DNA of 64,000 nucleotides, from the NCBI RefSeq assembly GCF_014334135.1, contig NZ_CP060497.1:930001-994000 (forward strand), given 5' to 3'. The DNA is from Olivibacter sp. SDN3 (GTDB lineage Bacteria > Bacteroidota > Bacteroidia > Sphingobacteriales > Sphingobacteriaceae). Below are positions 35,229-53,363 of the stretch, piece by piece. The notes under the pieces were generated by a model, which was not told the DNA's origin, searched no databases, and saw only the letters and a program-made list of their open reading frames with translations. The position numbers and the translations under genes are program-made. Each line of letters begins with the position of its first letter. The stretch's first letter is position 1.

Positions 35229-35619
35229 GATAATTTTGTTGGTTTTTTGATTCATCAAGCACTGTATATCAGCCACAATAGCTCACCTAACAAATTTATC
35301 ACATGAAAACCACCTCTTGTTATCAAAAATTAACCAAACAAACACATATATTAACAACAATACAACTATACACCAAAAAATATAGCTATTTAATAATAAA
35401 TAGCCTTTTTTATCAGCACATTATTACTTTTTACTCATTTTATATAAAAAAACTTTTCATCGTCTACTATTACTAGCATATTACTATCTAAAACAATACA
35501 CTTCCGATGTTTCGTTAAGGAGATAAACTTACTAAAATGAATGCTAGTATACTTCCACAGGGATTTTTAGCAAAATTGATTTTGTGTCCTTGCTCCACGT
35601 CTAGATCCGGGCGCGCTAC
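35229..35619. other. A/T-rich region upstream of susC
   Basis: About 390 bases without a gene. The minus strand carries TAAATTTG at 35291-35298, a plausible -7 element for the SusC gene, without a well-spaced TTTG. The rest is low-complexity A/T sequence with no clear hairpin. Confidence 0.3.
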
Positions 35620-36050: not shown

Positions 36051-36968
36051 CTACCATTCTTGTTCCGTTGCAGGAGTCTCCTCTTCCAATACCGCAGGTT
36101 CTTCATCCGAAGTGTTTTCAGGCGCCTGATCAATCAGTTCCATAAATTGATCCAACTTCGGTGTGATTATAATCTGAGTCCGACGATTTTTCGCCCGCCC
36201 ATCTTCCGTATCATTACTGGCTATCGGATTGTATTCTCCTCGCCCACCTGCAGTTAACCTTTTAGGACTCACACCATAATCATTTTGCAAGGCCTGCACC
36301 ACTGACGATGCCCGGAGGGTACTTAAATCCCAGTTGTTACGTATATTGGTTTTCTTGATCGGCATAGTATCGGTATTACCTTCAATCAACACTTCATAAT
36401 CTTTGTAATCCATAATGATCTTGGCGATTTTACCAAGCGTCTCACTAGCTTGAGGTGATATCTCGTAGCTTCCAGATTTATAAAGCATGTTATCTGAAAG
36501 CGAAATGTATACTACGCCTTTTAAGACCTGTACATCGACATCCTGAGTTTCTTCGCGGCTCAGTGAGCGTGTCAGATTATTAGTTAAGACCATGTTCAAG
36601 GAATCACTTTTATTTTTGGTATTTACCAAATGTTGGATATAGCGATTAGAAGCATTGATCTCATCTACCAGTTTGGATATATTAGCATTGCCCTGGCTGC
36701 TATTACTAAGGCATTTATCCAATGCTGACTGCAGAGAAGCCACATTAGCGCGATAAGTAGCTAGCTGTTCTTCTAAGCTTTTCACCCTAGATTGTGCATT
36801 CGATAGTTCGTGCTGACTATTTAAATATTTCAAGTCTAAGTCTTTATACTTGGTCTGCAGCTCCTGATGTTCGGTCTGCAATAGCGTATACTTTTTACTA
36901 CCGCAACCTGTCATTGCCAATGCAAGTGCAAGAAAAACAACAAACAGGTTAAATATTTTACTCTTCAT
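36051..36968 (-). CDS. OmpA-family lipoprotein with coiled coil
   Basis: A 305-residue peptidoglycan-anchoring lipoprotein. Lipobox AMTGC places the lipid Cys at residue 22. Residues about 27-90 form a heptad coiled coil (LQTEHQELQTKYKDLDLKYL). An OmpA C-terminal domain covers about 145-270 with the peptidoglycan-binding residues in EGNTDTMPIKK, NWDLSTLRASSVV and GRGEYNPIASN...GRAKNRRTQI. The acidic C-terminal tail is unstructured. It tethers outer membrane to wall. It lies 109 bases after the BASS gene and ends in a strong terminator, so it may be the end of that transcript or a separate unit. Confidence 0.92.
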   Translation of the reverse strand: MKSKIFNLFVVFLALALAMTGCGSKKYTLLQTEHQELQTKYKDLDLKYLNSQHELSNAQSRVKSLEEQLATYRANVASLQSALDKCLSNSSQGNANISKLVDEINASNRYIQHLVNTKNKSDSLNMVLTNNLTRSLSREETQDVDVQVLKGVVYISLSDNMLYKSGSYEISPQASETLGKIAKIIMDYKDYEVLIEGNTDTMPIKKTNIRNNWDLSTLRASSVVQALQNDYGVSPKRLTAGGRGEYNPIASNDTEDGRAKNRRTQIIITPKLDQFMELIDQAPENTSDEEPAVLEEETPATEQEW

Positions 36969-37077: not shown

Positions 37078-38214
37078 TTAATTCATTGAGCATTTTTTAT
37101 CAAGCGGCCGTTTCTTCCAAAAAGAAGCCAGCAAAGAGCCGGTGACATTCATCAACGGTCCAAACACTGCCGGAGCTAAGCCTACGGTGGCTATTTTCCC
37201 CATCTCCTTCGCAATCCCTGAAGCCAGTCCGCCGTTCTGCATACCGGTTTCGATAGCAAGCGTCCGGCAGTCTCTTTCTTCCAACTTCAATAGTTTACCT
37301 ACACCATAGCCTAATCCGTATCCTAATGTGTTATGCATGAAGACAAGGCATACTAACCATAAACCAATCTGTTTTAGACTTTCCTGTCCACTTGCGGTGA
37401 TCACTACAATAATGCAGATTATACCGACCATGGAAAGCAGCGGCATGATAGATGTTAACCATAATTTCCCTTTAATGAGCTTATTAACGATCAAGCCCCC
37501 ACCTATCGGAAGAATGACCATCTTTACAATATCCCACATCATAGCCATGGGGTCAATTGCAATAAAGGTACCTGCGAGGAATTTCATCAATAACGGTGTG
37601 GAAACAGGTGCTATTAAGGTGCTCATTGTGGTTATGGTTATGGATAACGCCAGATTAGCATTGGCCAAATAAGCGATGACATTGGACGCCATGCCACTGG
37701 GCGAGCACCCGATCAAGATTATTCCAGCCGCAATTTCTGTTGGCAGCTTACTTACGCTGGCAAGCATAAATCCCAGTAAGGGCATGATAGTCACTTGGCA
37801 AAGTACACCAATGCCCACCAATTTCGGTGTTTTTCCCACTGCTGCGAAATCCTTTACAGACATGGTTGTACCCATACCGAACATAATCAATTGAATGAAT
37901 GGTGTGATCAAGCCAGTATAGTAAAAACCTTTATACCGAATGAAGTATTCGGGGTGGTACATCGCTAAGCACACTGCCGCAAAAATTAGTGTGGTGTAAC
38001 TATACCCTTTGAAGGAGATATGGAATTTACACGCGAAAGCCAAGCTTACAAGCGCACCGACGAAAGACCAACCGGCGATCTGGTGGTTATTACCTAAGAC
38101 TAGACCGGTGCCCGTTAGTAGTAGCAGCACCGCCAGCCCGAGAAAGACATAAAAGAGAATACGATGATCTTGTTTCATTTTGGTCGGTTTAATAGGGTTC
38201 GTTAGCTTTTCCAT
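37078..38214 (-). CDS. BASS-family (bile acid:Na+ symporter-like) transporter
   Basis: A 378-residue inner-membrane protein with about ten transmembrane segments of the SBF/BASS family, sodium-driven importers of organic acids. Family segments are visible in MFGMGTTMSVKDF, GCSPSGMASNVIAYLANANLALS and ETGMQNGGLASGIA, where the broken-helix crossover and Na+ sites lie. The start at 38214 is three bases after the RraA-like stop; a second Met at 38178 (MKQDHR) is possible. The neighbours suggest a 2-oxo acid or similar anionic product of the periplasmic enzymes as substrate. That is inference. Confidence 0.9.
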   Translation of the reverse strand: MEKLTNPIKPTKMKQDHRILFYVFLGLAVLLLLTGTGLVLGNNHQIAGWSFVGALVSLAFACKFHISFKGYSYTTLIFAAVCLAMYHPEYFIRYKGFYYTGLITPFIQLIMFGMGTTMSVKDFAAVGKTPKLVGIGVLCQVTIMPLLGFMLASVSKLPTEIAAGIILIGCSPSGMASNVIAYLANANLALSITITTMSTLIAPVSTPLLMKFLAGTFIAIDPMAMMWDIVKMVILPIGGGLIVNKLIKGKLWLTSIMPLLSMVGIICIIVVITASGQESLKQIGLWLVCLVFMHNTLGYGLGYGVGKLLKLEERDCRTLAIETGMQNGGLASGIAKEMGKIATVGLAPAVFGPLMNVTGSLLASFWKKRPLDKKCSMN

Positions 38215-38217
38215 TGC

Positions 38218-39150
38218 TCACCAAGTTCGTTTAAGCATGAGTTCATCCAACTGTGCTTTATCAATTTGTGGCATTTCGGGATGTTTTCGTAACCATTCCA
38301 CAAAGCGTTTTTTGATCGTCTCGGTCCATTGGTTGTCGATCTCTCCGGTGGTGTACTGTTCCGTCTGTATCATCTCATCTCCGAAAGCATCTCTTAGCTG
38401 AATAAACTCGGCCGTAACGATGACGTCTTCAGCCAAGTGTGCGGGAATGAAGAGCACCCCTTCTTCATTTGCCAGGACAAGATCGCCGGGCAGCACGGTT
38501 GCCTGTCCGATCCTGATCGCTGTATTTATTCCGTAGAGCACTGCATCTTCCAGGTATGACGGATCGAAGCCCCGAACAAATGCATTAAAACCGTCGATCT
38601 CCTTTAGCCCTTCTAGATCACGCACAGCGGCATCAAAGACAACACCGTTTTTTGATCTGCCATAGATGGATTTTCCCAGGGTCTGCCCGATCAGCGTGCC
38701 ACCCTTTATCTTGCCAAAGCCGTCTGCCACATAGATATCGCCATCTACTAAAACATCAATTGGCCAGGAGTTATTGTTCCCTTTTCTGCCTTCATTTTCT
38801 CCCGTTTCGAGCACCAAAGATTCAAGATCTGGCCGACTGGGCATAAATTGAGCAGTAAGCGCCCTACCTACCATGTTTTGTTGTGGATGAATGATTTTCC
38901 AATTCCCTTCGAACTGATGGGCATACCCTTCATTCCGGAGTATCGTCCATGCGTCATCAAGGCCGACATGAGCGGCTCTTGATAATAGGGAATCCGACAA
39001 GCGCGGTCGTCCGTCCGAAAAACGTTCTCCTTGCCATTGTTTGGTTAGTCTAAGTATGGACGTTTTATCGAGGATCTGACCCAGCACCTGTGGTGTCCAG
39101 AGAGCCATAAGTAGCATCATGAGCCATAAACGGATTATCGGTAATTTCAT
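38218..39150 (-). CDS. Secreted RraA-like aldolase/lyase-family protein
   Basis: A 310-residue protein with a signal peptide ending TPQVLGQ at about residue 25, then an RraA-fold (former dimethylmenaquinone methyltransferase family). The family core is present: VDGDIYVADGFGKIKGGTL, GVVFDAAVRDLEGLK with the Arg-Asp pair, and PGDLVLANEEGVLFIP. Members include 4-hydroxy-4-methyl-2-oxoglutarate aldolase and oxaloacetate decarboxylase, which use a divalent metal; others bind RNase E. Export argues against the RNase regulator and for a carbon-carbon lyase. The N-terminal 90 residues extend beyond the core family. It sits between the amidohydrolase and the BASS transporter. Confidence 0.85.
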   Translation of the reverse strand: MKLPIIRLWLMMLLMALWTPQVLGQILDKTSILRLTKQWQGERFSDGRPRLSDSLLSRAAHVGLDDAWTILRNEGYAHQFEGNWKIIHPQQNMVGRALTAQFMPSRPDLESLVLETGENEGRKGNNNSWPIDVLVDGDIYVADGFGKIKGGTLIGQTLGKSIYGRSKNGVVFDAAVRDLEGLKEIDGFNAFVRGFDPSYLEDAVLYGINTAIRIGQATVLPGDLVLANEEGVLFIPAHLAEDVIVTAEFIQLRDAFGDEMIQTEQYTTGEIDNQWTETIKKRFVEWLRKHPEMPQIDKAQLDELMLKRTW

Positions 39151-39245
39151 CTGTTGCGTTATTTATTTTGGTTAAAATAAGTTGTATCGACGTTGTTTAA
39201 AGATTGTTCAACCCTATTCTTTTCTTTCTATATTTCAGTATATAC

Positions 39246-40496
39246 TTAGGGTGTACGAACAACCAAAGGTTCTGCTATGCCATTGAGATCATAGACAATT
39301 TTGCCGTCTCGAATGGTAAGTTCACATTCCAATTTCTTTTGACCCTTGACTTTGGTGCCTTTATAATCGAAGTAGCCAAAATTTCCTTTTCTTACATGGA
39401 GGATGGCAATATCTGCCAATGCACCTACAGAAAGATGACCAAGGCTTTCCCTTTTTATGATTTGGGCGGGTTGCCAAGTGCTGGCAGCGATTACATTCGG
39501 TAAATCCATGCCCATAACCAAAAATTTAGACATGACGGTTAACATATCTTTCATCGCACCGTTCATACTGCCGATATGGATATCGGTACTAATGGCATCG
39601 GGATAAAACCCTTCCTTCACTGCAGGCACCGCCTGCGAAAAGGAAAAGCTAATTCCGCCATAACCCACATCAAATTTAATCCCTTTCTTACGCGCATCGT
39701 GCACAAAAGGTTTTACGCGTTTTTTCTCTATGTCTACAATATATTCCCGACCAGGAATCTCTGCAAAGGCATGCGTAAAAATGTCACCGGGACGTAGATG
39801 GTCAAAGAACAACTCCTGGATAGGCAAAGGCGGGTTTGCACCTCCAAAATCAACCATTACCGGTAAACCTCCCGCCAAGTCGCTCGCTTTAACCGCCTGG
39901 TCTACCGGAGCCCATGATCGTCCTTCAAAATGTGCGACTTTGAATCCTACGATATGTTCGGGATTATCCTTTGCCACTTTAGCAGCCAGGGAGGCCTCCA
40001 TCTGGGTCGTATCTTGTTCAAAATGCCCTCCCCGCATGCCCTGTTTCGCTATATTCAAAAAGGCCAAAACACGAGTTTTAGACTGTTTAATGGTCTGTTC
40101 TTTATAGTAATAAAAAGTTTCCGCGCCAGGCGATCCTGCGTCTACTACGGTGGTCACACCATTACGCAGACTAAAGCCGTCGGGCGGAAAGGCATTGGGC
40201 CCGTTCATATATGCCTGATCGAGGTTCGTTCCCCAATAATGATGGGTATGAAGATCGATCAAACCTGGTGTAACGTAACTTCCAACGGCATCAACTAACT
40301 GTTTCCCCAGCTTCCCTTCTATTTCTGGCGCTACCTCAACAATACGCCCATCCTTTATAGCAACATCTCTCTTTTCATATATATTGTTTTTAGGATCAAT
40401 GACGGTGCCGCCTTTGATCACTAGATCATACTGTTGCGCCCACAGCGTACCTCCATACAAAAACATGCCAACTGCTATGCAAAAAATCTTCTTCAT
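39246..40496 (-). CDS. Exported amidohydrolase/deacetylase-family metal hydrolase
   Basis: A 416-residue amidohydrolase-superfamily TIM barrel with a signal peptide ending TLWAQ at residue 21. Metal ligands are visible in DLHTHHYWG (81-89), Lys186 in GFKVAHF (the likely carboxylated lysine), His242 in FTHAF and the active-site Asp in STDIHIGS. It resembles the EF_0837/AHA_3915-type dihydroorotase-like deacylases that are often next to SelA-like PLP enzymes, as here. A deacylation or ring opening of an N-acyl amino compound is the likely reaction; the substrate is unknown. Confidence 0.87.
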   Translation of the reverse strand: MKKIFCIAVGMFLYGGTLWAQQYDLVIKGGTVIDPKNNIYEKRDVAIKDGRIVEVAPEIEGKLGKQLVDAVGSYVTPGLIDLHTHHYWGTNLDQAYMNGPNAFPPDGFSLRNGVTTVVDAGSPGAETFYYYKEQTIKQSKTRVLAFLNIAKQGMRGGHFEQDTTQMEASLAAKVAKDNPEHIVGFKVAHFEGRSWAPVDQAVKASDLAGGLPVMVDFGGANPPLPIQELFFDHLRPGDIFTHAFAEIPGREYIVDIEKKRVKPFVHDARKKGIKFDVGYGGISFSFSQAVPAVKEGFYPDAISTDIHIGSMNGAMKDMLTVMSKFLVMGMDLPNVIAASTWQPAQIIKRESLGHLSVGALADIAILHVRKGNFGYFDYKGTKVKGQKKLECELTIRDGKIVYDLNGIAEPLVVRTP

Positions 40497-40576
40497 AATA
40501 GTTTACCTTTTGGGCAATAAAATGCCCGGACAACCTATAGGTTGTTCATAAAACAATGACTATCAAACAATTAAAC

Positions 40577-41113
40577 TTATCTTACTTCTACTATCATCTC
40601 GATTTCCACAGGAATGTTGTTAGGAAGTGAGCCAACACCTACCGCCGAGCGAGCATGCTTTCCTTTATCGCCGAACACTTCCACCATAAAATCGGAAAAA
40701 CCGTTGATGACCTTGGGCTGATCTTTAAAATCTGCAGTTGCATTAACCATTCCCAGCACTTTCACGACACGAACCACTTTGTTCAAATCGCCAATCTCAG
40801 CTTTCAAAGCCGCTAATAATGATATGCCCACCAATTTTGCTGCTTGCTGTCCTTCTTCGATCGTTAAGTCCTGACCTACCTTTCCCTGCACTTGTCGTCC
40901 CTCGGGTAAATCCGGACCATGACCGGAGAGGTAAATTAAATTCCCTGTACGAACCGCGGGCAAGAAATTAGCAATCGGGGGTTTTGGTTTGGGTAAGGTA
41001 ACACCTAAATCTGTCAAACGCTTCTCTACGTCTTGTGCAACATCTTGCCCCATAGCTATCATATGCCATCCGTGTACCGATAGACATAACAGCAGTAAAT
41101 AAGCTTTCTTCAT
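40577..41113 (-). CDS. Exported RidA-family imine/enamine deaminase, copy 1
   Basis: A 178-residue RidA/YjgF-family protein preceded by a signal peptide (about 1-23, ending AMGQ). The RidA fold begins near residue 45. The active-site Arg155 in HARSAVGVGSLP and Glu170 in PVEIEMIVE keep the 15-residue spacing of Arg105 and Glu120 of RidA. RidA proteins hydrolyse the reactive 2-aminoacrylate-type imines released by PLP enzymes. They normally act in the cytoplasm, so an exported form beside an exported PLP enzyme is notable. It is 21 bases after the second RidA gene and before the amidohydrolase. Confidence 0.9.
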   Translation of the reverse strand: MKKAYLLLLCLSVHGWHMIAMGQDVAQDVEKRLTDLGVTLPKPKPPIANFLPAVRTGNLIYLSGHGPDLPEGRQVQGKVGQDLTIEEGQQAAKLVGISLLAALKAEIGDLNKVVRVVKVLGMVNATADFKDQPKVINGFSDFMVEVFGDKGKHARSAVGVGSLPNNIPVEIEMIVEVR

Positions 41114-41134
41114 AATGAATTATTCTTTTACAAT

Positions 41135-41602
41135 TTAAACATAAGCGATACAATCCATTTCCACTAAGGAATCTCCCGGTACGCCTCCGTAAGTAGCTAC
41201 TGTAGTCCTTACTGGTGGCTTGTTTCCGAAACGACCTTTAAAAACCTCATTCATGGCTTTGTAATCTGCGAGATCTGCAAGATAAACATTTACCTTTAAG
41301 ACCTTCTCCATGCTGGACCCTGCTTTTACCAGCTCTTCTTCCAACTCTTTCAATACGTGGTCGGTATGTGCTTTGACATCACCTTCGAAGTGTGCACCTT
41401 TACCGGCGACGAACAGCAGGCCGTTAAATTTTGTACAGCCGGAAAAAAGTGGTACATCATCTTGTTTTTTCACATTGAAAACTTCTTTGGCCGCCGGATG
41501 ATTAGTTGTTTCAGTTGCTTTAGCCACGAGCCCAAAGCCAGTAACGCCTAATAGCGACGTGAATAATTTTTTCACTGCGGATCTACGTTCATTCTTTTTC
41601 AT
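41135..41602 (-). CDS. Exported RidA-family imine/enamine deaminase, copy 2 (Tat signal)
   Basis: A 155-residue RidA-family protein with a twin-arginine-type leader, MKKNERRSAVKKLF followed by a short hydrophobic stretch to AKA at about 29. Arg132 (PPVRTTVATYGG) and Glu148 (LVEMDCIAYV) are the expected active-site pair. It differs strongly from the neighbouring copy (40577-41113), both in leader type and in core sequence, so the pair is not a recent duplication. It follows the PLP enzyme by 71 bases. A role in clearing the imine product of that enzyme is inferred. Confidence 0.88.
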   Translation of the reverse strand: MKKNERRSAVKKLFTSLLGVTGFGLVAKATETTNHPAAKEVFNVKKQDDVPLFSGCTKFNGLLFVAGKGAHFEGDVKAHTDHVLKELEEELVKAGSSMEKVLKVNVYLADLADYKAMNEVFKGRFGNKPPVRTTVATYGGVPGDSLVEMDCIAYV

Positions 41603-41673
41603 TGTTTCAAATATTTAATTTTAATTTATCTATTCTTATACACGAAGTATACAAATCTAAGTCTGCTATCATG

Positions 41674-42900
41674 TTAGCTCATAGCGGCTTTCAGATGTGC
41701 TGCAACTACCAAGTCCTGTCCTGGTTGCAGCATCCATGACGTGATGGTTATTTCATCATCTGTAGCGCTACCGATTTCTATGGATGGATTTCCGGCACGT
41801 AATTTCTCCTGTACCTCTACACCCTTAACACCGAGTTGGTCCGGGTTCCATTTAATATGCAGCGTGGGGGTTATATTTCCTAAAGGAGGTACGACAATTT
41901 CGGTAGACACGGTTGGCAACGACTGTACGGCTACCGCGATCTTTTTCACGCTTTCCTCCTGTTGTTGCCATTCTGCATCGTGGTCGGCCTGTATGAACTT
42001 TTCCAGGGCCATATACATTCCTAGGATCTCCTCTTTATTCACTTTCATTCCGCGGCCAATATTAAAACCACGGGGAGGCATACTCAACCGGGCGGCATCT
42101 ATGAATTTTTTCTTTCCCATAAGAAGGCCTGCGCTTTGCGGGCCTCTAATGGCTTTACCTCCGGATACACAAACCAGATCGAAACCCATTTCGTGGAACT
42201 TCCACAGGTTTGATACCGGCGGAACATCAGCTGCGATATCAATCATCGTAGGTATATCAAACTCCCTTGCTATGCTCACCCACTCTTCATGCATGATCAG
42301 CCCTTGGTCGCTTTGGATATGAAGGAAAAAGAGCATCGCTGTCTTTGGATTTATGGCTTTACGCAGCTCTTCCGCCGTTTCTATTTGAACAATTTTACAG
42401 CCCGTATTGCGCAACGCGTGGGAATAAACGATATTATGCCCTTTCTGGCAGATGACTTCCGATTTCATGTCGGTTCCATCCAAATGAGGTAGTTGTTCCA
42501 CCTTTTTTTCGTCCATACCGGTCAATATTCCGGCCAAGCCTAAGGTCATTGCAGAAAAACAACCTGACGTTACTACGGCAGATTCTGCTTTTACCAAGTT
42601 CGCAATCCTTTCGCCTACCTTGTCCTGCAATTCATCCAACATACAGAATGTGGTAGAACTACTATTGATCGTTTCCAAAACTTCAGGCCGCATCAAAGAC
42701 CCCGTCATAGCGGTATACGTGCCTGCGGCATTGATAAAGGTACGCACACCTAACTCTTGAAATAAGTTCTTGGGAGATCCGACACGATGTTGTTCGATGG
42801 CATCTCTCCATAAGGGTTGCCCTACCGCACTGCCTATAGGCAGTACGGAAAGCAATTTTAGCAATGATCTTCTTTTCATCTGTAAATAATGTTTATCCAT
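41674..42900 (-). CDS. Tat-exported SelA-like PLP-dependent enzyme
   Basis: A 408-residue fold-type I PLP enzyme of the SelA/DgaE-like group. The leader MKRRSLLKLLSVLPIGSAVG (from residue 8) is a twin-arginine signal, fitting export of a folded, cofactor-loaded protein. The PLP-binding Lys249 lies in VSGGKAIRGPQSAG and the ring-nitrogen Asp221 in MIDIAAD; TSGCFSAMTLGL forms the phosphate loop. Relatives are D-glucosaminate-6-phosphate ammonia lyase and uncharacterised partners of EF_0837-type amidohydrolases. Selenocysteine synthesis is unlikely, since export and context do not fit. The start may be the second Met (42879). Confidence 0.88.
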   Translation of the reverse strand: MDKHYLQMKRRSLLKLLSVLPIGSAVGQPLWRDAIEQHRVGSPKNLFQELGVRTFINAAGTYTAMTGSLMRPEVLETINSSSTTFCMLDELQDKVGERIANLVKAESAVVTSGCFSAMTLGLAGILTGMDEKKVEQLPHLDGTDMKSEVICQKGHNIVYSHALRNTGCKIVQIETAEELRKAINPKTAMLFFLHIQSDQGLIMHEEWVSIAREFDIPTMIDIAADVPPVSNLWKFHEMGFDLVCVSGGKAIRGPQSAGLLMGKKKFIDAARLSMPPRGFNIGRGMKVNKEEILGMYMALEKFIQADHDAEWQQQEESVKKIAVAVQSLPTVSTEIVVPPLGNITPTLHIKWNPDQLGVKGVEVQEKLRAGNPSIEIGSATDDEITITSWMLQPGQDLVVAAHLKAAMS

Positions 42901-42956
42901 CGGTCAGATGGCACTTAACATGTTCCTTCTTGTATTTTATAAGTCTCGTTTTTTGA

Positions 42957-44492
42957 TTATTGATCCCACCATACACGGCTGGTAAGCGCGTTCGTTCCCC
43001 CTTGCCTTTGTACCGCTTCCCGGAAATTTTCACCGTTATAGTTTTCTTCGGTCAGAGGTACGACAAAACGTCTCGGGACTGTGCCTCCCGTCAGATTACC
43101 AGGGTAGTTAACGGGCGTTAGTATAGGGTATCCGGTTCTCCGCCAGTTCGCAAAGATTTCGTACTCATCCTGTAGAAATAAGCTCACCCACAAATGCGTA
43201 TACAGTTGCTCCAATTTATCTTCAAAGGTCCCGCTGCTGGCGAAAGGGTTTCCACTGAGGTAAAAATCGATCCGGTTTTGGGCAATTTCTGCATATGATC
43301 CGAACAAAGCCCATTGGCGCATCGCAGATTGCACCGCCTGCGTATAAAGCTCAGCGGCATCCGTATCATACCATCCCCTAAGACTCGCTTCCGCTAACAA
43401 GGTGTACATTTCTGTAGGGGTTAATACTAAATGTGGTGCATCGAAGCGAAGGATCGTATTCGGATTCGGTTCGGAGAAGGTGGCAAAATTTTCGGGGAAC
43501 GAGTTGTACCGAGCGTTCGGCATGCCCATTTGCAGGCTGCTAGTGGTATCGGGCACAAAGGTTCCGGTAGCATTTCTTACCCGTACCACCGAGATCACAT
43601 TTAACCGGGGATCGTTGGTGTTTTTCAAATGATTGATGAACGTTTCAGCCAGTTTTCCTCCTTCGATATTATCTACCGCCTGCTGATTGAGATAGTCTGT
43701 ATTTAGTAAACCACTGGCAATAAAATTGCGTTGACTGATCTGTGAGCCATCCACATAAGCTATACGTGCTAGATCTACGTCAGCCAGTACTACTCCTCCT
43801 TCTATCGCTTTCCTTACCCAGCTCTCGGCTGCAGCGATGTCAACGTTCGTTAAACGCATGCCTAACCTGAGCATCAGTGAGTAAGCAAACTTCCGCCACT
43901 TCGCAATATCACCCCCATAGATCAGGTCTGCATTGCCATAACTGGGTAAGTCTGCATTTAGTGCTACCGCCGCCTCGTCCAGTTCTTTTAGCAGATCGGC
44001 ATAAACAACGGATTGTTCGTCGTATTTGGGGCTATAGGTACCATTCAGTCCCAATCCTGATTCAAAATAAGGAATATCGCCGTAAAGGTCTGTCAGTCGA
44101 TGAAAAATAAAGACTTTCCAGATTCTTGCAATGGAAAGGAGGTTGGTCTGCTCCGGATCTTCTGCTACGGCGTCCATTACTTTTTGTATTTCAATCACTG
44201 CTGTTGAATACGCTTCCCAGCTGGTGTAAGAATAGGTTTCGTTAAAATATTTATCGCCTGCTGCGGGAACTTCTTTGTAGGTAGCGGTCTGTTGCATCGA
44301 TCCGCCGATAGTAAGATAAGCGGCTCCAATATAATTGTTGCTCACAGCGTCCAGTTGCGCTTTGGTGAACATATAACCAGGCACCACCGTAGTGGAGGCA
44401 TTTGGATTTACATTCAAATCTTCCAGATCTTTGGTACAATTGCTGAACGTCAGGGCCAGTATAAAGACCAGATAAGGATATATTTTATTCAT
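42957..44492 (-). CDS. SusD-like surface lipoprotein
   Basis: A 511-residue lipoprotein of the SusD-like type (motif NVNPNAS after the lipobox). The start MNKIYPYLVF at 44492 gives a compact signal with lipobox TFSNC; an ATG five codons upstream is also in frame. The helical body and NWRRTGYP near the C-terminus are typical. It caps the SusC transporter encoded 26 bases upstream and is followed after 56 bases by the PLP enzyme, so the surface receptor and the periplasmic enzymes appear co-expressed. Confidence 0.93.
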   Translation of the reverse strand: MNKIYPYLVFILALTFSNCTKDLEDLNVNPNASTTVVPGYMFTKAQLDAVSNNYIGAAYLTIGGSMQQTATYKEVPAAGDKYFNETYSYTSWEAYSTAVIEIQKVMDAVAEDPEQTNLLSIARIWKVFIFHRLTDLYGDIPYFESGLGLNGTYSPKYDEQSVVYADLLKELDEAAVALNADLPSYGNADLIYGGDIAKWRKFAYSLMLRLGMRLTNVDIAAAESWVRKAIEGGVVLADVDLARIAYVDGSQISQRNFIASGLLNTDYLNQQAVDNIEGGKLAETFINHLKNTNDPRLNVISVVRVRNATGTFVPDTTSSLQMGMPNARYNSFPENFATFSEPNPNTILRFDAPHLVLTPTEMYTLLAEASLRGWYDTDAAELYTQAVQSAMRQWALFGSYAEIAQNRIDFYLSGNPFASSGTFEDKLEQLYTHLWVSLFLQDEYEIFANWRRTGYPILTPVNYPGNLTGGTVPRRFVVPLTEENYNGENFREAVQRQGGTNALTSRVWWDQ

Positions 44493-44518
44493 ACAATAAA
44501 GTTTCATTATTACTACAA

Positions 44519-47500
44519 TTAAAATTTGACGATTAGGTTAAGGCCCAAACTTCTGGTCCGAGGCACACCGAAAGCTTCCAGTCCCTGTGCATTGCTGTTA
44601 GAGTAGCTAGATTCGGGGTCGAAATACTTATTCCGTTTATCTTTATACAGGATAAAGAGGTTCCGCCCCACCAACGATATAGACGCACCCTGCAGTTTGT
44701 TGAGCCAATGGATCTTGTCTGTTGGCAAATTGTAGGATAATATCAATTGACGAAGTTTGATAAAGTCATTATCGAACATAAACATGGATGTATAGAATTT
44801 GTCGTTATCATAATAGGTATCAATCTCTTCCGGATTCCAGGTTTTGGAAAAGGCTTGGCCGTTCTGATCTACACCATTTACTGTCAGGCCTGTTTCTCTT
44901 CCGGGCAAGGTCTCTTCGGGTAATCCGAAGCGATAAGCATACTGAAAGAGGTTGGAATAAATCATGCTTCCAAATTTTCCATCGATTAATACATTGAGTG
45001 AAAAGTTCTTATAATTAAACGTATTGTTCAGCCCCATAATCAACGGCGGAACCCCTTGTCCTATCTCTTCCAAGGGCCCTCTCTCTGCATAGCCACTGGC
45101 GCTATTGAATACCGTTTGTCCATTTCCATCCGTCAATTTACGATAACCCCATAACGTCCCGTAAGGCCTACCAACGACATTTTGTATAGAGCCGCCTCCT
45201 ACACCTTCCCCTACGGTAATGGCATTCAAGCCCTCTGCCAACTGTATGATTTCACTTTGATTATAGGCCAGGTTATAACTAATATCCCATTTGAAATTAT
45301 CGTTCCGTATGGGTGTTCCATTAAGCAAGAGCTCGATACCTTTATTACTTAGTTGTCCGACATTGAGCAGCGCCCTGTTATAACCCGAGGCTTGGGAGAT
45401 ATTTGACTCGACAATGTCGTCTGTGGTTTTCCGGTTATAAAGTGTTACATCAACTCCTAAGCGATTATCGAGGAACTGGGCATCAACACCGAATTCGTAT
45501 GTGGTTGACGTAAGCGGTCTCAGGCCAGGATTGGTTACCAAGTCGCTCGTTAATTCCTGTACCGGTCGCCCGTTATGGCCCCCTTGTACCATGCTATAGG
45601 TTTCATTCAGGATATAGGCATTGGGTGTAGCTCCTCCCACTTGTGCCCATGAACCCCTGAATTTTAACAGATTGAACAGCTCAGGTAGTTGAAAAGCATC
45701 ACTGGCCACAAAGGTGGCTCCTACGGAAGGGTAAAATATGCTATTGTTTTGCGGACTTAACGTAGAAAACCAATCTTGTCTACCGGTCATGGTCAGGTAG
45801 GCATAGCTTTTAAAACCGATATCGGCGGACGCAAAAACAGAGTTAATGCCCGTCTTTTGATAAAGTGGCGTTGTGGTCAGAATATTCAGATTGGTATAGC
45901 TATAGAAATGAGGTACAGTGAATTCGCTTCCGTCAATGGCTGTCTGATCATACTCGTTCCGTTGGATATTTCCACCTGCCATAGCTGTTAGGCTAAAGTC
46001 TTCGCCAATAGAAGTATCGTAGTTCAAGGTTAACATGCCATTCGTTTCGGCTGAAGTAGCGCGCATGCTCTGGAAGGTTCCCAATGGTCGAAAGGCATTT
46101 CCGGTTGGTTGCACAGCCTCATTATACGACTGATAAAAATCACGGCTGGCACTGGCGCGAATATTAAGGTTATCAAGTATATCGTACTGCACACTCCCCT
46201 GTAAGATAAAGCGGTCTCTTTTGTCATAATTAGAAAACCTGTTTACAATAAACCAAGGGTTCGGTGCTTCCACTACCGGATTCCAGCGAACCTCATCTCC
46301 ATTTTCATCATAACCTGGAGCGAGCGAGTTAATATCGACTGTGTTAGCGAGCATATACACCCCCCAAGCCGTATTATTATCGGCATACCCCACTTTTGGC
46401 CGGTTTGTTCCTTTATCAAAATTATATTGGGAAACTGCCTCTATATGTAGCCTCTTACCAACCTTAGCATTCACGGCTAAATTGGTGGTTAACCTATCAT
46501 ATGTTGAGTTTGGAACGATGGCTTTGGCATCGGTATTAGAAATACTTAGCCGGTAATTCAGCTCTTCAGAACCTCCGTTTAAAGCTAGGGAATTGATATA
46601 AGTTTGGCCGGTTTCATAAAAGCGGGCCGGGTTATCTTTTACCGGCGAATAGGGCCTGTATTGTCCGTCGAACTGGATATAGGGTTCACCATCCATCCGT
46701 GCGCCGTAAGAAAAGCGGCCTGTGGCGATAGCCTGTTCCTGCGTGGTAGGCTTTACGCCATCAAGTCCTTGGCCATAGATGTATTGCCATTCAGGATACA
46801 TCGATGGTCGTTCGAAGGTAGAAGTACTATTAAATTCAACTCCTATCCCTTTTCTGGCCACGCCCTTTTTAGTTGTTATGAGAATTACACCGTTTGCTGC
46901 ACGCGATCCATAAAGCGCAGACGCCGGACCTCCTTTCAATACCGATATCGACTCGATATCATCCGGGTTGATTCCTGCAATACCATCGCCTCTATCGACG
47001 TTCCAACCCATCCCTGAGGAGTTCGTTCCACCTCCGGGAATAGAGTTATCCATAGGCATACCATTAATCACATAAAGCGGCTGATTATTACCACTTAACG
47101 AACCATTCCCTCGGATAATTACACGACTTGAACCGCCAGGGCCAGTGGCCATACCAGCGACATCTACACCGGCTACCTTGCCTACCAAAGCATTCGCAAC
47201 GTTCACTTCGCGAGCCTGTGTAAATTGATCACCTCCTACCTCTGCTACTGAATAGGCTAGGGCTTTCTTCTGTCGGGAAATCCCCAGCGCTGTAACCACC
47301 ACTTCACTTAAAGATTGGTTGTCGGTGTCCATGACAACATCTATTGCCGTTTTTCCTTCTACGGCGACTGATTGTGAGACGTACCCCATATAGCTGAATT
47401 CAAGCGTTGCCGCTTGATCGGCATTAATGGTATAAAGACCATTCTCGTTGGTAACGGTGCCACTGGTTGTCCCTTTTACCCGGACACTTACGCCCGGCAG

Positions 47501-47938
47501 CGGATCTCCATTTTGATCTTTTACCGTACCGTTGATTGCTTTTTGTAATCCGCTGGATACGGATTGCCCTTTCACTTGCTGTATCGCTATCGTTTCAGCA
47601 ATAATGCGGTAATTTAAGCGATGGTTATGCAGTACCTTGTTCAGTACCAGTTCTACATCGCTGTCTTGAAAATCCACACTAAGTGGTGGAATGTTATCAA
47701 TGAGGTGCTCTTCATATAAAAATTTATAGTTTGTTTGACGCTCAATGCTCGTAAAAACCTCTTTCAATGAAACATTCTTCAATGAAATGTTAATCTTTTG
47801 CGCTATACTCCTAGCACTCACGGTGAGCGAGAACATGAAAGTCAGTGCGATTGTCAATTTCATGATCAGTTTAGCTTGTGAATAGTTTAGGCAATAGCTT
47901 TTACCAATAGGCTTTTGGCCTTTAGGAAAGTTATTCAT
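44519..47938 (-). CDS. SusC-like TonB-dependent transporter with STN signalling domain
   Basis: A 1139-residue outer-membrane transporter. After a signal peptide ending SARSIAQ (about residue 47) there is an STN domain (KINISLKNVSLKEVF...FKFLYEEHLIDNIPPLSV, about 48-120), which in FecA-type receptors contacts the FecR anti-sigma factor. A carboxypeptidase-like domain (GTVKDQNGDPLPGVSVRVKG), LSEVVVTALGISRQ, plug and barrel follow. The sigma and FecR genes lie directly upstream, so substrate passage should switch on this operon. The long N-terminus MNNFPKGQKPIGKSY is typical for this subgroup, so the first ATG is kept. Confidence 0.95.
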   Translation of the reverse strand: MNNFPKGQKPIGKSYCLNYSQAKLIMKLTIALTFMFSLTVSARSIAQKINISLKNVSLKEVFTSIERQTNYKFLYEEHLIDNIPPLSVDFQDSDVELVLNKVLHNHRLNYRIIAETIAIQQVKGQSVSSGLQKAINGTVKDQNGDPLPGVSVRVKGTTSGTVTNENGLYTINADQAATLEFSYMGYVSQSVAVEGKTAIDVVMDTDNQSLSEVVVTALGISRQKKALAYSVAEVGGDQFTQAREVNVANALVGKVAGVDVAGMATGPGGSSRVIIRGNGSLSGNNQPLYVINGMPMDNSIPGGGTNSSGMGWNVDRGDGIAGINPDDIESISVLKGGPASALYGSRAANGVILITTKKGVARKGIGVEFNSTSTFERPSMYPEWQYIYGQGLDGVKPTTQEQAIATGRFSYGARMDGEPYIQFDGQYRPYSPVKDNPARFYETGQTYINSLALNGGSEELNYRLSISNTDAKAIVPNSTYDRLTTNLAVNAKVGKRLHIEAVSQYNFDKGTNRPKVGYADNNTAWGVYMLANTVDINSLAPGYDENGDEVRWNPVVEAPNPWFIVNRFSNYDKRDRFILQGSVQYDILDNLNIRASASRDFYQSYNEAVQPTGNAFRPLGTFQSMRATSAETNGMLTLNYDTSIGEDFSLTAMAGGNIQRNEYDQTAIDGSEFTVPHFYSYTNLNILTTTPLYQKTGINSVFASADIGFKSYAYLTMTGRQDWFSTLSPQNNSIFYPSVGATFVASDAFQLPELFNLLKFRGSWAQVGGATPNAYILNETYSMVQGGHNGRPVQELTSDLVTNPGLRPLTSTTYEFGVDAQFLDNRLGVDVTLYNRKTTDDIVESNISQASGYNRALLNVGQLSNKGIELLLNGTPIRNDNFKWDISYNLAYNQSEIIQLAEGLNAITVGEGVGGGSIQNVVGRPYGTLWGYRKLTDGNGQTVFNSASGYAERGPLEEIGQGVPPLIMGLNNTFNYKNFSLNVLIDGKFGSMIYSNLFQYAYRFGLPEETLPGRETGLTVNGVDQNGQAFSKTWNPEEIDTYYDNDKFYTSMFMFDNDFIKLRQLILSYNLPTDKIHWLNKLQGASISLVGRNLFILYKDKRNKYFDPESSYSNSNAQGLEAFGVPRTRSLGLNLIVKF

Positions 47939-48095
47939 AACTTTGAAAAGTTAAGGGATTATTAAATTATACAAATAGTCGTTTGAACCTTAATATGTCC
48001 AGAGGTATGGCAGTACTTCTGGATTTTTGGTTTTCATTCCGGTGATTTCTTAATGTTTCTTTTTTATTTCATATCATAATCGTGTTAAATGGTGA

Positions 48096-49271
48096 TTAAT
48101 CTGTTTCCTTCACATAGAGATTACGGCCGTCAATCTCAAATTTCATATCACTGATAAGCGTTAACATTTCACATACTTCAGCTAAGGTGGCGGATCTTTT
48201 GATTCCTCCTCTATATTTTTTATTTCTTATGCCAGGCCCATATGTAACTTGCAGATCATACCATCTGGCAATTTCTTCCATAATTTGTGAGGCATCTTCT
48301 CCATCAAAATAAAAGTACCCTTTCTTCCAAGCCGTGGCCTTCTCGATTCCAATATCCTTTATGGAGAGCATCTGCTCCTTTACCTCAGCCGTTTGCCCTG
48401 GAGATAACATCTTCTCCGTACCTACGGCATTTACTTTAATAGCACCCTCTGTAAGCGTGGTAACGAGCTTATCATTATACGTATTAACGTTAAATGAGGT
48501 ACCAAGTGCTGTAATCAGCGAACCCTTGTATGCCACTTTAAAAGGACGATCAGCATCTTTCGCTACTTCAAAAAAAGCTTCACCACTCACGGCTACTCGC
48601 CTTTCATTTTCCCCGAATTGTACTGGAAATTCAATAGATGAAAAAGCATTTACCCACACTTTGGTGCCGTCTTCCAAGACGATACGATAGGTTCCCGACT
48701 TAGGCACCGTTAGTGAATGTACTTTATTTGCAAATGAAGTATATCGAGGACTGGAACTGTAAACAACCTCGCCATTACGGTCTTCCAACACCACATTATC
48801 ATACTGATAGCTACGCTCTTCCTCTCCCAAAGGAAACACATCACCGTTTGCTAAAAATAACTTCGCCTGATTAGTTCCGGGGAGTACATCATTTTTATAT
48901 TGTTTGGTTTTGTCTGCAATAATACCTGTATCGTTTTGTTTTTGAACAAACGGAGAAAAATAGAAATAAATGGAGATCGCAATGCAAAGGGTTAGGGCAA
49001 TAGAAGCTACCAAACGAATATTTATCTTGAAAGTCTTTTCTCGGCTTCGTTCTTGTAGTTTTAACCAAGCCGCATCGGCATCAATGCTAGACAGAAAACG
49101 AATATCTTTTTCAACCCCTTGAGCATCTTTAAAGCTCTCCATCATTTCCTGATGAAGACGGTGCTTCTCACACCACTGCTGTAATTGACGATCTTCGGCT
49201 CCATCGCTTTGATTACGAAGAAATTTTACAATAAGTACGGCTATTCCAAAGGATTCTCTATCCATATTCAA
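48096..49271 (-). CDS. FecR-family anti-sigma factor
   Basis: A 391-residue inner-membrane regulator. The cytoplasmic N-terminal part (1-80) binds the sigma factor; one transmembrane segment lies at about 87-107 (LVASIALTLCIAISIYFYF). A FecR domain (LTVPKSGTYRIVLEDGTKVW, EVAKDADRPFKV) and a C-terminal DUF4974 domain face the periplasm. It receives the signal from the STN domain of the SusC encoded next and controls the ECF sigma factor encoded just upstream. A start at the second Met (MDRESF) is possible. Confidence 0.95.
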   Translation of the reverse strand: MNMDRESFGIAVLIVKFLRNQSDGAEDRQLQQWCEKHRLHQEMMESFKDAQGVEKDIRFLSSIDADAAWLKLQERSREKTFKINIRLVASIALTLCIAISIYFYFSPFVQKQNDTGIIADKTKQYKNDVLPGTNQAKLFLANGDVFPLGEEERSYQYDNVVLEDRNGEVVYSSSPRYTSFANKVHSLTVPKSGTYRIVLEDGTKVWVNAFSSIEFPVQFGENERRVAVSGEAFFEVAKDADRPFKVAYKGSLITALGTSFNVNTYNDKLVTTLTEGAIKVNAVGTEKMLSPGQTAEVKEQMLSIKDIGIEKATAWKKGYFYFDGEDASQIMEEIARWYDLQVTYGPGIRNKKYRGGIKRSATLAEVCEMLTLISDMKFEIDGRNLYVKETD

Positions 49272-49419
49272 TTATTTTCTACCCAAAAGGCTAATTTCCC
49301 TCAGAATAAATGGCATAGCACCACAAATAAGGAATATATTGGTTATTTTTTTAGTAAGAAACGGAGAGGGCGGTTTTGGGTGACAATTTTTTTAAAAAAA
49401 ATGAAAGCCTATTTAAAAC

Positions 49420-49983
49420 TTATCTTGCCGAAAAGAAAAAATACAGCAATAACGTAAACATCTCAGGATCCAATTTACGTTTCAGTACTTTCATCCCTCT
49501 TTGTTTCTGTGTCTTTACCGTGTTGATGGTAACGCCTAATTTTTCCGAAATTTCCTGATTATTCAAACCTTCCAGGTAGCCCATTCGGAATATTTCGCGA
49601 CAGCCTTCGGGAAGATCATCAATAATCTTGTAGACTGCTGCCAACACTTCTGTCCTGATCATCGACGTAAGGTATTTAGCTTCTTCCACTTCACTGTCTT
49701 CCCGCAGCTTAAAATACCGTCGAATGACTTGTTGCCTTCTAATGGTATTGTAACAAGCATTCTTTACCGAACTGTACAGGAAACTCCTTATGACATCTGT
49801 ATCTTTTGACAGCTGGTTTCTTTTTTTCAGGTAAGCCATGAATGCTTCCTGAGCCAAATCTTCCGCCTCCTGTTTATCTCCAAGATGTTGAAAAGCAAAA
49901 AAACAAAGCTTAGCATAGTACGCTTTAAAAAGCTGTTCAGCATCAAGTTCAATGGGGGAAAAAGCAGAATATTTAGCTTCCAT
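49420..49983 (-). CDS. ECF sigma-70 factor
   Basis: A 187-residue extracytoplasmic-function sigma factor. Region 2 is visible in LCFFAFQHLGDKQEAEDLAQ and AFMAYLKK, and region 4 in GLNNQEISEKLGVTINTVK with the DNA-binding helix. It lies 148 bases upstream of the FecR gene on the same strand and, with it and the STN-SusC, forms a surface-signalling trio. By this design it would transcribe the SusC operon when the substrate is present. Its own promoter is not evident. Confidence 0.95.
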   Translation of the reverse strand: MEAKYSAFSPIELDAEQLFKAYYAKLCFFAFQHLGDKQEAEDLAQEAFMAYLKKRNQLSKDTDVIRSFLYSSVKNACYNTIRRQQVIRRYFKLREDSEVEEAKYLTSMIRTEVLAAVYKIIDDLPEGCREIFRMGYLEGLNNQEISEKLGVTINTVKTQKQRGMKVLKRKLDPEMFTLLLYFFFSAR

Positions 49984-50112: not shown

Positions 50113-51585
50113 TTAGAGAAACCTTTTTAGCCGTGGGCTAATCAATAGTAAAAGAAATCCGATTGCCAATGCATAAAAAGCGAGCTCCTGATAGCCTTTT
50201 GTATAAGCCATTAATTTATCCAGCAAACTCGCCCGTTCATTTGCAGTAGACATGCCTGCCCCCAACAACCCCGCCACGTATTGGCCATAAGCACTACCCA
50301 GAAACCATAGCCCCATCATCATCCCGGTCAATTTATTGGGCGATAGTTTAGTAATTACCGACATGCCAATAGGTCCAATACAAAGCTCACTTAGCGTAAT
50401 AAAGAAATATGCTAGCGTGAATACATTTAAGGACGTTATACCATGTTCATCGGCAAAAAAACGGGTGCTATAAAAAAAATAAAAACCAACCGCCAATAAT
50501 AGGAATCCAAGACCAAATTTTACGGTGGTATTAGGTTCAATTTTTCGCTTAGCCATCCATATCCACAATAAGCCTAGAGGAGAGCTCAATAGTATAATAA
50601 ATAAGGCACCGGAAGAATTATTTACCATATTTGGGTCAATACGAAAGAATAATACATGGTGCTTGAGATTATTGGCAGCGAAAAGATTTAGCGAACCACC
50701 CATTTGCTCGAAAAAGGCAATATAGAAAATGTAGGCAAAGATAAACACTAATGCAACTAACAAGGAACGTTTAAATTGTTTTTCAGGCATTTGTATCCAC
50801 TGATAACAAAAATAAATCAAAGCAAGGGGCCCTATGGTATACATAAAATAGTCGGTATACTGGGTGTTTTGAATCATGATCAAGATAAATGGAATGGCTG
50901 CTATTGCCGCGACATATACCAGGATTTCCCTAAAATAACGTTGTTTTCTTCCGCCAGGTTGGGCTGGTGTTTTTCCTATAGGCCCCAGGGTATGCTTGGT
51001 GAGCTGAAAAGTAAACAAACCGAAGGCCATCACTACACCTGCAGCTGCGAAAGCAGCGCTCCAGCTGACATATTTACCTAGATATACGCATATTATTCCT
51101 CCCAAGAACGCACCTACGTTGATACCGGCATAAAATAGGCTAAATCCGGCATCCCTTCTAGCGTCGCCAGGCGCATATAACTGTCCAACCATCGAAGAGA
51201 TATTGGGCTTAAAAAAGCCCGTACCAATAATTGACAAGGATATCCCAATATAGAAAAAAGCGGTCGGCGAAGCTGCAATGAGGATATTTCCAGCAATCAT
51301 GATAGTTCCTCCGAAGAATAGGGATTTTCTAAAGCCCAGCACTTTATCGGCAGCAATCCCGCCAATAAATGTAAAAGCATATACAAAGGCCTGGATAGCA
51401 CCATATTTCAAATTAGCCGCATGATCATTTAGCTCGAGTTGGCTCACCATAAAGAGCGCCAATATCGCCCGCATACCGTAAAAGCAAAAGCGCTCCCACA
51501 TCTCCACTGCGAACAGGTACCATAACTGCTTTGGGTATTTACCCTCAAACTGTTGAATTTGCTCCAAAGTTTTTTGAGACATCAT
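50113..51585 (-). CDS. POT/PTR2-family peptide:H+ symporter
   Basis: A 490-residue inner-membrane transporter with about 12-14 transmembrane helices. The POT proton-coupling motif EMWERFCFYGMRA (ExxERFxxYG) is near the N-terminus and a second signature FSLFYAGINVGAFLGG follows. It imports di- and tripeptides. The start at 51585 or 51582 (MMSQKTLEQ) is preferred over 51657, because the family begins directly before FEGKYPKQLWYLF. It lies 143 bases downstream of a SusD gene, suggesting that peptides released outside are taken in here. Confidence 0.93.
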   Translation of the reverse strand: MMSQKTLEQIQQFEGKYPKQLWYLFAVEMWERFCFYGMRAILALFMVSQLELNDHAANLKYGAIQAFVYAFTFIGGIAADKVLGFRKSLFFGGTIMIAGNILIAASPTAFFYIGISLSIIGTGFFKPNISSMVGQLYAPGDARRDAGFSLFYAGINVGAFLGGIICVYLGKYVSWSAAFAAAGVVMAFGLFTFQLTKHTLGPIGKTPAQPGGRKQRYFREILVYVAAIAAIPFILIMIQNTQYTDYFMYTIGPLALIYFCYQWIQMPEKQFKRSLLVALVFIFAYIFYIAFFEQMGGSLNLFAANNLKHHVLFFRIDPNMVNNSSGALFIILLSSPLGLLWIWMAKRKIEPNTTVKFGLGFLLLAVGFYFFYSTRFFADEHGITSLNVFTLAYFFITLSELCIGPIGMSVITKLSPNKLTGMMMGLWFLGSAYGQYVAGLLGAGMSTANERASLLDKLMAYTKGYQELAFYALAIGFLLLLISPRLKRFL

Positions 51586-51728
51586 CGTGGGGAGTAAATT
51601 AGCCGATTTTTTCCAAATTAATACAATCTTGGGACTTTTCTTACATGGATGCACCAATCAACAATAAAAGTAGGCCATTTGCTTCACAACAGAAGGCCTA
51701 AACACATAAAAACAGCGATTATTAACAT

Positions 51729-53333: not shown

Positions 53334-53363
53334 CTTCTTAAATTCAATTAACCGTTAATGTTA

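Follow-up and report, generated by a model that had tools for sequence, protein, structure and literature searches.

Gene content of the putative operon

The window analysed here is a 64,000-nucleotide stretch of the Olivibacter sp. SDN3 genome (contig NZ_CP060497.1, positions 930,001 to 994,000). The subject is a run of ten genes on its minus strand (window positions 37078-49983), which joins an outer-membrane uptake and sensing system to five enzymes with predicted export leaders and an inner-membrane carrier, and which is read below as a candidate catabolic route of the periplasm. All ten are open frames and lie where a preliminary description, made from the letters of the DNA, had placed them, and scans with Pfam and NCBIfam models agree with the family names that it gave. 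From the 5′ end of the run, the genes are:

49420..49983, minus strand: extracytoplasmic function (ECF) sigma factor (TIGR02985, Bacteroidetes type; 139.5 bits, above cut-off)
48096..49271, minus strand: FecR-type anti-sigma factor/sensor (FecR and FecR_C domains)
44519..47938, minus strand: SusC/RagA outer-membrane transporter with an N-terminal STN signalling domain and a plug (TIGR04056, 649 bits)
42957..44507, minus strand: SusD-like_2 protein (Pfam)
41674..42900, minus strand: DgaE/SelA-like enzyme dependent on pyridoxal 5′-phosphate (PLP), with a twin-arginine (Tat) leader (TIGR01437, 189 bits); predicted 2-aminoaldonate ammonia-lyase
41135..41602, minus strand: RidA with a Tat leader (PF01042; active-site Arg motif present)
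40577..41113, minus strand: second Rid protein (Rid2), YjgF_endoribonc type, with a Sec leader (PF14588/PF01042; active-site Arg present)
39246..40496, minus strand: EF_0837-type amidohydrolase with a Sec leader (NF006689); predicted N-deacylase
38218..39150, minus strand: RraA-like protein with a Sec leader (PF03737); predicted class II aldolase for 2-keto-3-deoxyaldonates
37078..38214, minus strand: BASS-family carrier (SBF; PF01758, 124 bits); predicted importer of pyruvate or a related oxo-acid

The short spacing that had been described from SusD onward begins already at SusC: all gaps from SusC to the BASS gene fall within 3-95 bases (SusC-SusD 11, SusD-SelA 56, SelA-RidA 71, RidA-Rid2 21, Rid2-amidohydrolase 80, amidohydrolase-RraA 95 and RraA-BASS 3). 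The two upstream gaps are ECF-FecR at 148 and FecR-SusC at 157 bases, and the ECF/FecR pair may be a unit separate from the SusC-BASS run. A terminator-like repeat (47997-48024), called on the plus strand only, lies inside the FecR-SusC gap; the scan for promoter-like and terminator-like patterns gave no excess over shuffled sequences (28 versus 30.4 expected and 6 versus 13.9 expected). According to Pfam and NCBIfam, the ten genes include neither a kinase nor a phosphotransferase system (PTS), and there is no glycoside hydrolase among them. The genome is a single 6.1 Mb contig, in which the PLP enzyme is matched once and RraA strongly twice, a third RraA match being remote (6e-6).

Recurrence and predicted export of the gene set

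The cluster is real, conserved and functionally coherent. Its neighbourhood was surveyed in 35 SelA-anchored Bacteroidota stretches of at most 21 kb each, namely the window, L032-L051 (20, chosen around matches to the PLP enzyme in the family), L053-L058 and L083-L090 (8, chosen around matches across the phylum), L052 being dropped as it lies on the same contig as L033; neighbours were counted by BLAST within 8 kb of the SelA-like gene. An amidohydrolase was present in 31 stretches, any Rid in 29 (RidA in 22, Rid2 in 13) and both together in 29, with L039 and L045 carrying the amidohydrolase without a Rid. SusC and SusD were each found in 21, the BASS carrier in 16 and RraA in 15. The combination of amidohydrolase, Rid, RraA and BASS occurs in nine (the window, L032, L033, L036, L048, L050, L085, L086 and L087). 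These linkage counts are anchored on SelA, with the clustering stated without a formal chance test, and the 35 stretches are not 35 independent events, because five Larkinella share one layout and five or more are from Olivibacter.

Gene order varies among the stretches: SusCD-SelA-RidA-Rid2-amidohydrolase-RraA-BASS here, SusCD-amidohydrolase-RidA-RraA-BASS-SelA in L032, L033 and L036, and SusCD-RidA-SelA-amidohydrolase-RraA in L047-L049. Retention of the set under such shuffling therefore argues for functional linkage, and the absence of conserved synteny, named in the preliminary description as an outcome that would refute it, was not what the survey found. The PLP enzyme itself is uncommon, reaching E ≤ 1e-50 in 8 of 395 genomes across the phylum (its own genome included); among 151 genomes of the family, best E-values are at or below 1e-50 in 24 and at or below 0.001 in 39. 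Outside the phylum, a plasmid of Granulicella (Acidobacteriota) carries in consecutive order RraA, a SelA-like gene, RidA, a second PLP protein, an amidohydrolase, a 7-bladed lactonase and a BBE-type FAD oxidase (L073), which points to transfer or to an old origin of the set. Genomes of one genus (g21; for example, G085, G097 and G113) each give at least 12 SelA-like matches, including forms of ~550 amino acids with a C-terminal extension.

Export leaders were called with a simple hydrophobicity script (not SignalP) and, separately, with a twin-arginine pattern within the first 55 residues. In the window, the PLP enzyme (KRRSLLKLL) and RidA (ERRSAVKKLF) carry twin-arginine leaders, and Rid2, the amidohydrolase and RraA carry Sec-like leaders by the script. 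Both kinds are conserved in homologues. The twin-arginine pattern was found in 54 of 55 SelA-like rows and 24 of 26 RidA rows (the lone SelA-like miss is a frame with an upstream extension and RR at 59-60, and both RidA misses read RK), as well as in 9/9 rows of MR_MLE proteins, which accompany RraA at other loci (see below); it was absent from all 14 Rid2, 49 amidohydrolase and 27 RraA rows. Among the leader rows, L052 duplicates the L033 region. The script by itself called 28 SelA-like rows as Tat and 24 as without leader (n=52), a low count that arises because many of the hydrophobic cores lie below its threshold, and the motif count was therefore used. For the other families, it called leaders in 48 of 49 amidohydrolases (46 Sec, 2 Tat), 25 of 27 RraA and 11 of 14 Rid2 rows (leaderless in L042, L043 and L051), with the caveat that the Enterococcus amidohydrolase and the Rhizobium PLP enzyme, both presumed cytoplasmic, were also called Sec.

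TatC is encoded in the Olivibacter genome. In several of the Rid2, dehydrogenase and lactonase rows, the leader, read by eye, closes with a lipobox-like Cys. Export of the five enzymes to the periplasm, as proposed in the preliminary description, is thus supported by their predicted leaders, and cytoplasmic enzymes, the other outcome that it had named, did not appear. In a tree of 64 SelA-like rows, the Tat label requires three changes; no single origin of export is claimed, because the Tat call of L075 is a script artefact (its frame extends far upstream of the annotated start) and L081 sits on a very long branch. RidA (41135-41602) is a small protein without a known cofactor, has a conserved Tat leader and is perhaps exported in a folded state, the leader of Rid2 being Sec-type or lipoprotein-like.

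Enzyme families and active-site residues

By sequence, the closest PDB relative of the PLP enzyme is DgaE (E 6e-35), followed by Cap15 (8t7j; E 8e-26), and the enzyme lies below the cut-offs of two family models (TIGR01437, 189.1 versus 385.3 bits; the second, 161.1 versus 600 bits). Identity as a true SelA (selenocysteine synthase) was rejected, since TIGR00474 gives 34.7 bits against a cut-off of 267.9. The broad Pfam SelA model is passed by the protein in hmmscan (31.6 versus 22.8 bits), so a genome search with the same model, which listed no match, was given no weight. DgaE and Cap15 also rank top by fold, yet with a poor predicted structure (mean pLDDT 56.0, 12 sequences) this ranking adds little to the sequence match.

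The SelA-like alignment holds 65 rows, 54 of them from Bacteroidota (53 distinct). All 65 rows have K at the Schiff-base position, K249 of the window enzyme corresponding to index 213 of the DgaE (DGL) chain, a residue named Lys-217 in the text of PMC9529869. Docking in the same paper set Arg301, Arg332 and Arg346 of DgaE near the substrate phosphate. Of these arginines, none is present in 52 of the 54 Bacteroidota rows and one in the other two (both from L039); the window enzyme has T, G and W at the three positions, the third being loosely aligned (W389 or M390). All three are found in the Klebsiella, Enterococcus and Lacticaseibacillus DgaE rows and in one Streptomyces row, and two in the Rhizobium and Thalassospira rows. 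Because the phosphate site is lost, no kinase is encoded among the ten genes and the periplasm is without ATP, an unphosphorylated substrate would fit.

A second difference concerns the proton donor. In DgaE, C3 receives its proton from His163, and exchange of this residue for alanine leads to release of the enamine in place of the imine (PMC9529869). The corresponding column holds His in none of the 54 Bacteroidota rows (9 have a gap), and pairwise alignment of the window enzyme puts a loop His at DgaE position 162 and Ile at 163. Judged from these alignments, His163 is probably lost in the window enzyme, a loss that would account for the Rid genes.

The amidohydrolase passes NF006689 (446.2 versus 371 bits) and stays under the cut-off of TIGR03583, the EF_0837 model (238.8 versus 432.15 bits). 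The metal ligands of such enzymes are HxH, Lys, His, His and Asp. H83, H85, K186, H242 and D305 do not vary across 29 aligned rows, the Klebsiella and Enterococcus enzymes among them, but in the window protein strand 5 has Asp instead of His. Both Rid proteins pass PF01042 (67.3 and 52.1 versus 27.3 bits), and the active-site Arg, presumably catalytic, is retained in 24/24 RidA and 14/14 Rid2 rows. The RraA-like protein passes PF03737 (62 versus 24.5 bits), and the profile of the RraA alignment (A2) matches 3noj at 1.3e-18, with an Arg177-Asp178 pair in 24 of 25 rows (L039 is without it). The motif of RraA and HMG/CHA aldolase presumably has the form Asp-X20-Arg-Asp; its third residue, read by pattern in 27 rows, is most often Asp (16) and otherwise Gln (7) or a different residue (4). 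Structure prediction for this protein was poor (mean pLDDT 47.4, 2 sequences). The BASS carrier is under the NCBIfam cut-offs (PanS, 220 versus 400 bits; bass, 224 versus 326 bits), and pyruvate is assumed as its cargo from the family, with plant BASS2 as the example.

A candidate periplasmic route and its alternatives

Sister clusters and other RraA loci bear on the substrate. A Glucose/Sorbosone-dehydrogenase-type protein (GSDH) with a C-terminal cytochrome c was found in 17 of the 35 SelA-anchored stretches, and an SMP-30/gluconolactonase (SGL) in 13, all of which also have the dehydrogenase (both by BLAST, with examples by Pfam); such a dehydrogenase plus gluconolactonase is the kind of pair that converts an aldose to an aldonate. 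CBM9-like proteins lie within three clusters (L085:8623-9720, L087:11090-12271 and L097:6424-7659). In addition, 12 RraA loci were examined, 11 of them chosen without a nearby SelA match and one (L097) sharing a contig with the SelA of L034, ~15 kb away. Eight (L092, L093, L095, L096, L098, L099, L100 and L101) encode an MR_MLE protein, with the Tat motif in 8/8, and all eight have SusC and an MFS or BASS carrier, with SusD in all except L095; L097 has an amidohydrolase, RidA and BASS, and L091, L094 and L102 have neither partner. The six MR_MLE proteins scanned with Pfam pass its MR_MLE cut-offs, and the five scanned with NCBIfam are nearest to galactonate and gluconate dehydratases under the cut-offs of those models, the best being galactonate dehydratase at 174-271 bits (cut-off 311). 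One of these loci (L098) is in Olivibacter's own genome at 4322300-4342299, where SusCD, a galactonate-dehydratase-like MR_MLE protein with a Tat leader, an exported RraA and an MFS carrier likely form an exported aldonate route in the same strain.

Since aldonate dehydratases and aminoaldonate ammonia-lyases arrive at the same product, the shared RraA is best explained as acting on a 2-keto-3-deoxyaldonate; according to PMC5065237, most homologues in the RraA fold family are probably pyruvate aldolases. As sister clusters add a dehydrogenase and a lactonase and RraA pairs with aldonate-dehydratase-like enzymes, the substrate is probably an N-acylated 2-amino-2-deoxyaldonate. The operon would then encode a periplasmic, phosphate-free catabolic route for such compounds, that is, C1-oxidised amino sugars such as N-acetyl-glucosaminate (GlcNAc1A), a reading to which we assign a probability of roughly 0.55. 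SusCD would import the ligand, which the STN-FecR-ECF chain would sense, and the amidohydrolase would take off the acyl group to leave the aminoaldonate. The Tat-exported DgaE-like PLP enzyme would eliminate water between C2 and C3 and, seemingly without the His163 proton donor, may yield a free enamine; the exported Rid proteins would turn this over to 2-keto-3-deoxyaldonate and ammonia. The exported RraA-like enzyme would split this into pyruvate and an aldehyde (glyceraldehyde if the substrate is a hexonate), and either pyruvate or the keto acid would enter through the BASS carrier. Like every substrate and activity named here, the acyl group, the stereochemistry and the BASS cargo are predictions from family and context.

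The preliminary description had arrived at the same order of deacylation, PLP-dependent elimination, Rid action, cleavage and import, which the sequence evidence supports, and its interpretation as a whole is partly supported. An N-acylated substrate is kept; its generic N-acyl amino compound is lowered to one of the alternatives below, given the sugar-oxidation neighbours.

Several observations weigh against this reading. Within 8 kb, RraA is missing in 20 and Rid in 6 of the 35 SelA-anchored stretches, and four (L035, L044, L058 and L090) have neither amidohydrolase nor Rid. Some g21 clusters hold gamma-glutamyltranspeptidase, M81, sulfatase or permeases (lactate permease among them), so that substrates vary. 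In 48 exported amidohydrolases, the strand-5 His of the Klebsiella and Enterococcus enzymes is replaced by Asp (47) or Glu (1), and deacylation is therefore not assured; the window RraA has Gln156 where HMG/CHA aldolase has Asp. The His163 loop of these proteins is shortened and its alignment is loose. A His occurs within it in 17 of 54 rows, and in 10, including the window protein and most Larkinella rows, this His lies a few residues upstream, at a position that is Asn in most of the others, and could serve instead. The Rhizobium and Thalassospira relatives retain both histidines yet adjoin a Rid, which, together with the loose alignment, weakens any strict rule that a Rid follows from loss of His163; this caveat concerns a detail of the Rid step and not the route itself. 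Finally, the Olivibacter genome gives no LPMO_10 match, and its nearest counterparts of the cluster-type sugar dehydrogenase and lactonase are distant (27-31%). Chitin oxidation fed by such a monooxygenase within this genome was rejected for want of the LPMO_10 match, and because the dehydrogenase and lactonase also lack close relatives, the strain probably imports an already oxidised amino sugar.

Of the alternatives, the most probable keeps the exported logic but applies it to N-acyl D-amino acids, beta-hydroxy amino acids (D-Ser and D-Thr types) or peptide-derived compounds, with RraA cleaving or decarboxylating another oxo-acid, for example oxaloacetate. EF_0837 relatives are deposited under several annotations, a DgaE paper cited in PMC9529869 has D-amino acid specificity in its title, and gamma-glutamyltranspeptidase and M81 metallopeptidase in g21 clusters would suit it. 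It is nevertheless unlikely, as the frequency of the sugar dehydrogenase and lactonase, the three clusters with CBM9-like proteins and the aldonate-dehydratase relatives that serve as RraA partners all point to sugar acids. Slightly less probable is a diacid version, in which the RraA-like enzyme is a dehydratase/decarboxylase on 2-keto-3-deoxyaldarate and an N-acyl amino sugar diacid gives 2-oxoglutarate semialdehyde instead of pyruvate. The RraA-like FlDet of Flavobacterium has such an activity (PMC8563752), and Gln in place of the aldolase Asp would agree with it; against it, GSDH and gluconolactonase lead to aldonates rather than aldarates, the Arg-Asp pair is almost always retained, and FlDet is likened by description, not by sequence. 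That the PLP enzyme is oxygen-dependent like Cap15, with the Rid proteins clearing imines from oxidation, is improbable: Cap15 ('Oxygen- and PLP-dependent Cap15') is the second-best relative by sequence and by fold of a poor model, but DgaE is nearer, an EF_0837-type amidohydrolase with an aldolase-type enzyme is the DgaE context, and a dehydratase as the alternative to SelA implies the same product.

The chemistry of the favoured N-acyl aminoaldonate route has cytoplasmic precedents, so the earlier statement that no pathway of this form is described holds only in part. In the Salmonella dga route (PMC9529869), a cytoplasmic pathway, the DgaABCD PTS is followed by DgaE (DGL) and DgaF. Its PLP enzyme and that of the EF_0837-DgaE-aldolase (2-keto-3-deoxy-6-phosphogluconate, KDPG, aldolase) clusters are homologous to that of Olivibacter and the reaction order is the same, with the aldolase last; in the Klebsiella and Enterococcus clusters, the amidohydrolase is homologous as well. 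Systems of the dga type are cytoplasmic, phosphorylate the substrate on entry and retain His162/163 and the three phosphate arginines, and no Rid match was found in the Klebsiella, Enterococcus and Lacticaseibacillus DgaE stretches. The Olivibacter cluster differs in its export leaders, the lack of a kinase or PTS among its ten genes, its two Rid proteins and an RraA-like protein in the place of the aldolase. A lactonase gene is next in line to the cytoplasmic amidohydrolase-DgaE-KDPG aldolase cluster of Klebsiella.

The ong pathway for GlcNAc1A in Pseudoalteromonas prydzensis (PMC9537276) likewise combines outer-membrane import, a deacetylase, a deaminase and an essential RidA-family protein, and its product is 2-keto-3-deoxygluconate (KDG). 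It differs in that the paper annotates OngB and OngC as D-aminoacylase and D-amino acid deaminase and predicts them to be cytoplasmic (a comparison by description, not by sequence), an SSS carrier brings in GlcNAc1A ahead of its breakdown, KdgK phosphorylates KDG and OngR regulates; by a term search, the main text of a later OngB paper (PMC12017989) mentions neither Bacteroidota nor the periplasm. For chitin-degrading haloarchaea, a glucosaminate route has been proposed whose cluster includes a RutC-family gene as well as a homologue of DgaE (PMC12343721). FlDet, a KDGR dehydratase/decarboxylase of Flavobacterium sp. UMI-01 (PMC8563752), resembles the window protein as an RraA-like enzyme acting on a 2-keto-3-deoxy sugar acid, in another reaction and another pathway (alginate). 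SusCD utilisation loci under ECF/FecR control share the uptake and sensing head; the Olivibacter genes differ from them in having enzymes of small-molecule catabolism and no glycoside hydrolase. What appears new is the exported, phosphate-free, Rid-assisted and RraA-terminated form of a known pathway chemistry, no exported, phosphate-free version being recognised among the open-licence PMC papers that the literature searches listed. A search for work on EF0837 and Atu3266 likewise listed nothing of use.

Carbon catabolism down to carbon-carbon cleavage is normally cytoplasmic. If the enzymes act in the periplasm, Bacteroidota could break down oxidised amino sugars, such as those released by oxidative attack on chitin, without phosphorylation, exported Rid proteins would handle reactive enamines or imines outside the cytoplasm, and testable functions are offered for exported RraA-like, SelA-like and EF_0837-like proteins. 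A broader and more tentative proposal, somewhat short of an even chance, places an entire non-phosphorylative Entner-Doudoroff-like branch of some Bacteroidota beyond the inner membrane. There, a cytochrome c-linked dehydrogenase and a lactonase would oxidise sugars and amino sugars to lactones and aldonates, either of two interchangeable Tat-exported entry enzymes (an aldonate dehydratase or a Rid-helped aminoaldonate ammonia-lyase) would carry these on to 2-keto-3-deoxyaldonates, and an exported aldolase of the RraA type would cleave them in the same compartment, leaving small acids as the sole compounds to pass the inner membrane. On this view the site of Rid action would lie outside the cytoplasm, and loss of the proton-donor histidine of the lyase may be what makes Rid proteins necessary.

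Beyond the ten genes, what we take to be an OmpA-like gene (36051-36968) lies 109 bases past the BASS gene and was not noticed in the recurring set. The operon is further flanked by genes whose names are likewise our assumption: another SusC (32244-35276), a POT-like transporter (50113-51657) and further SusCD-like genes (51729-56339).

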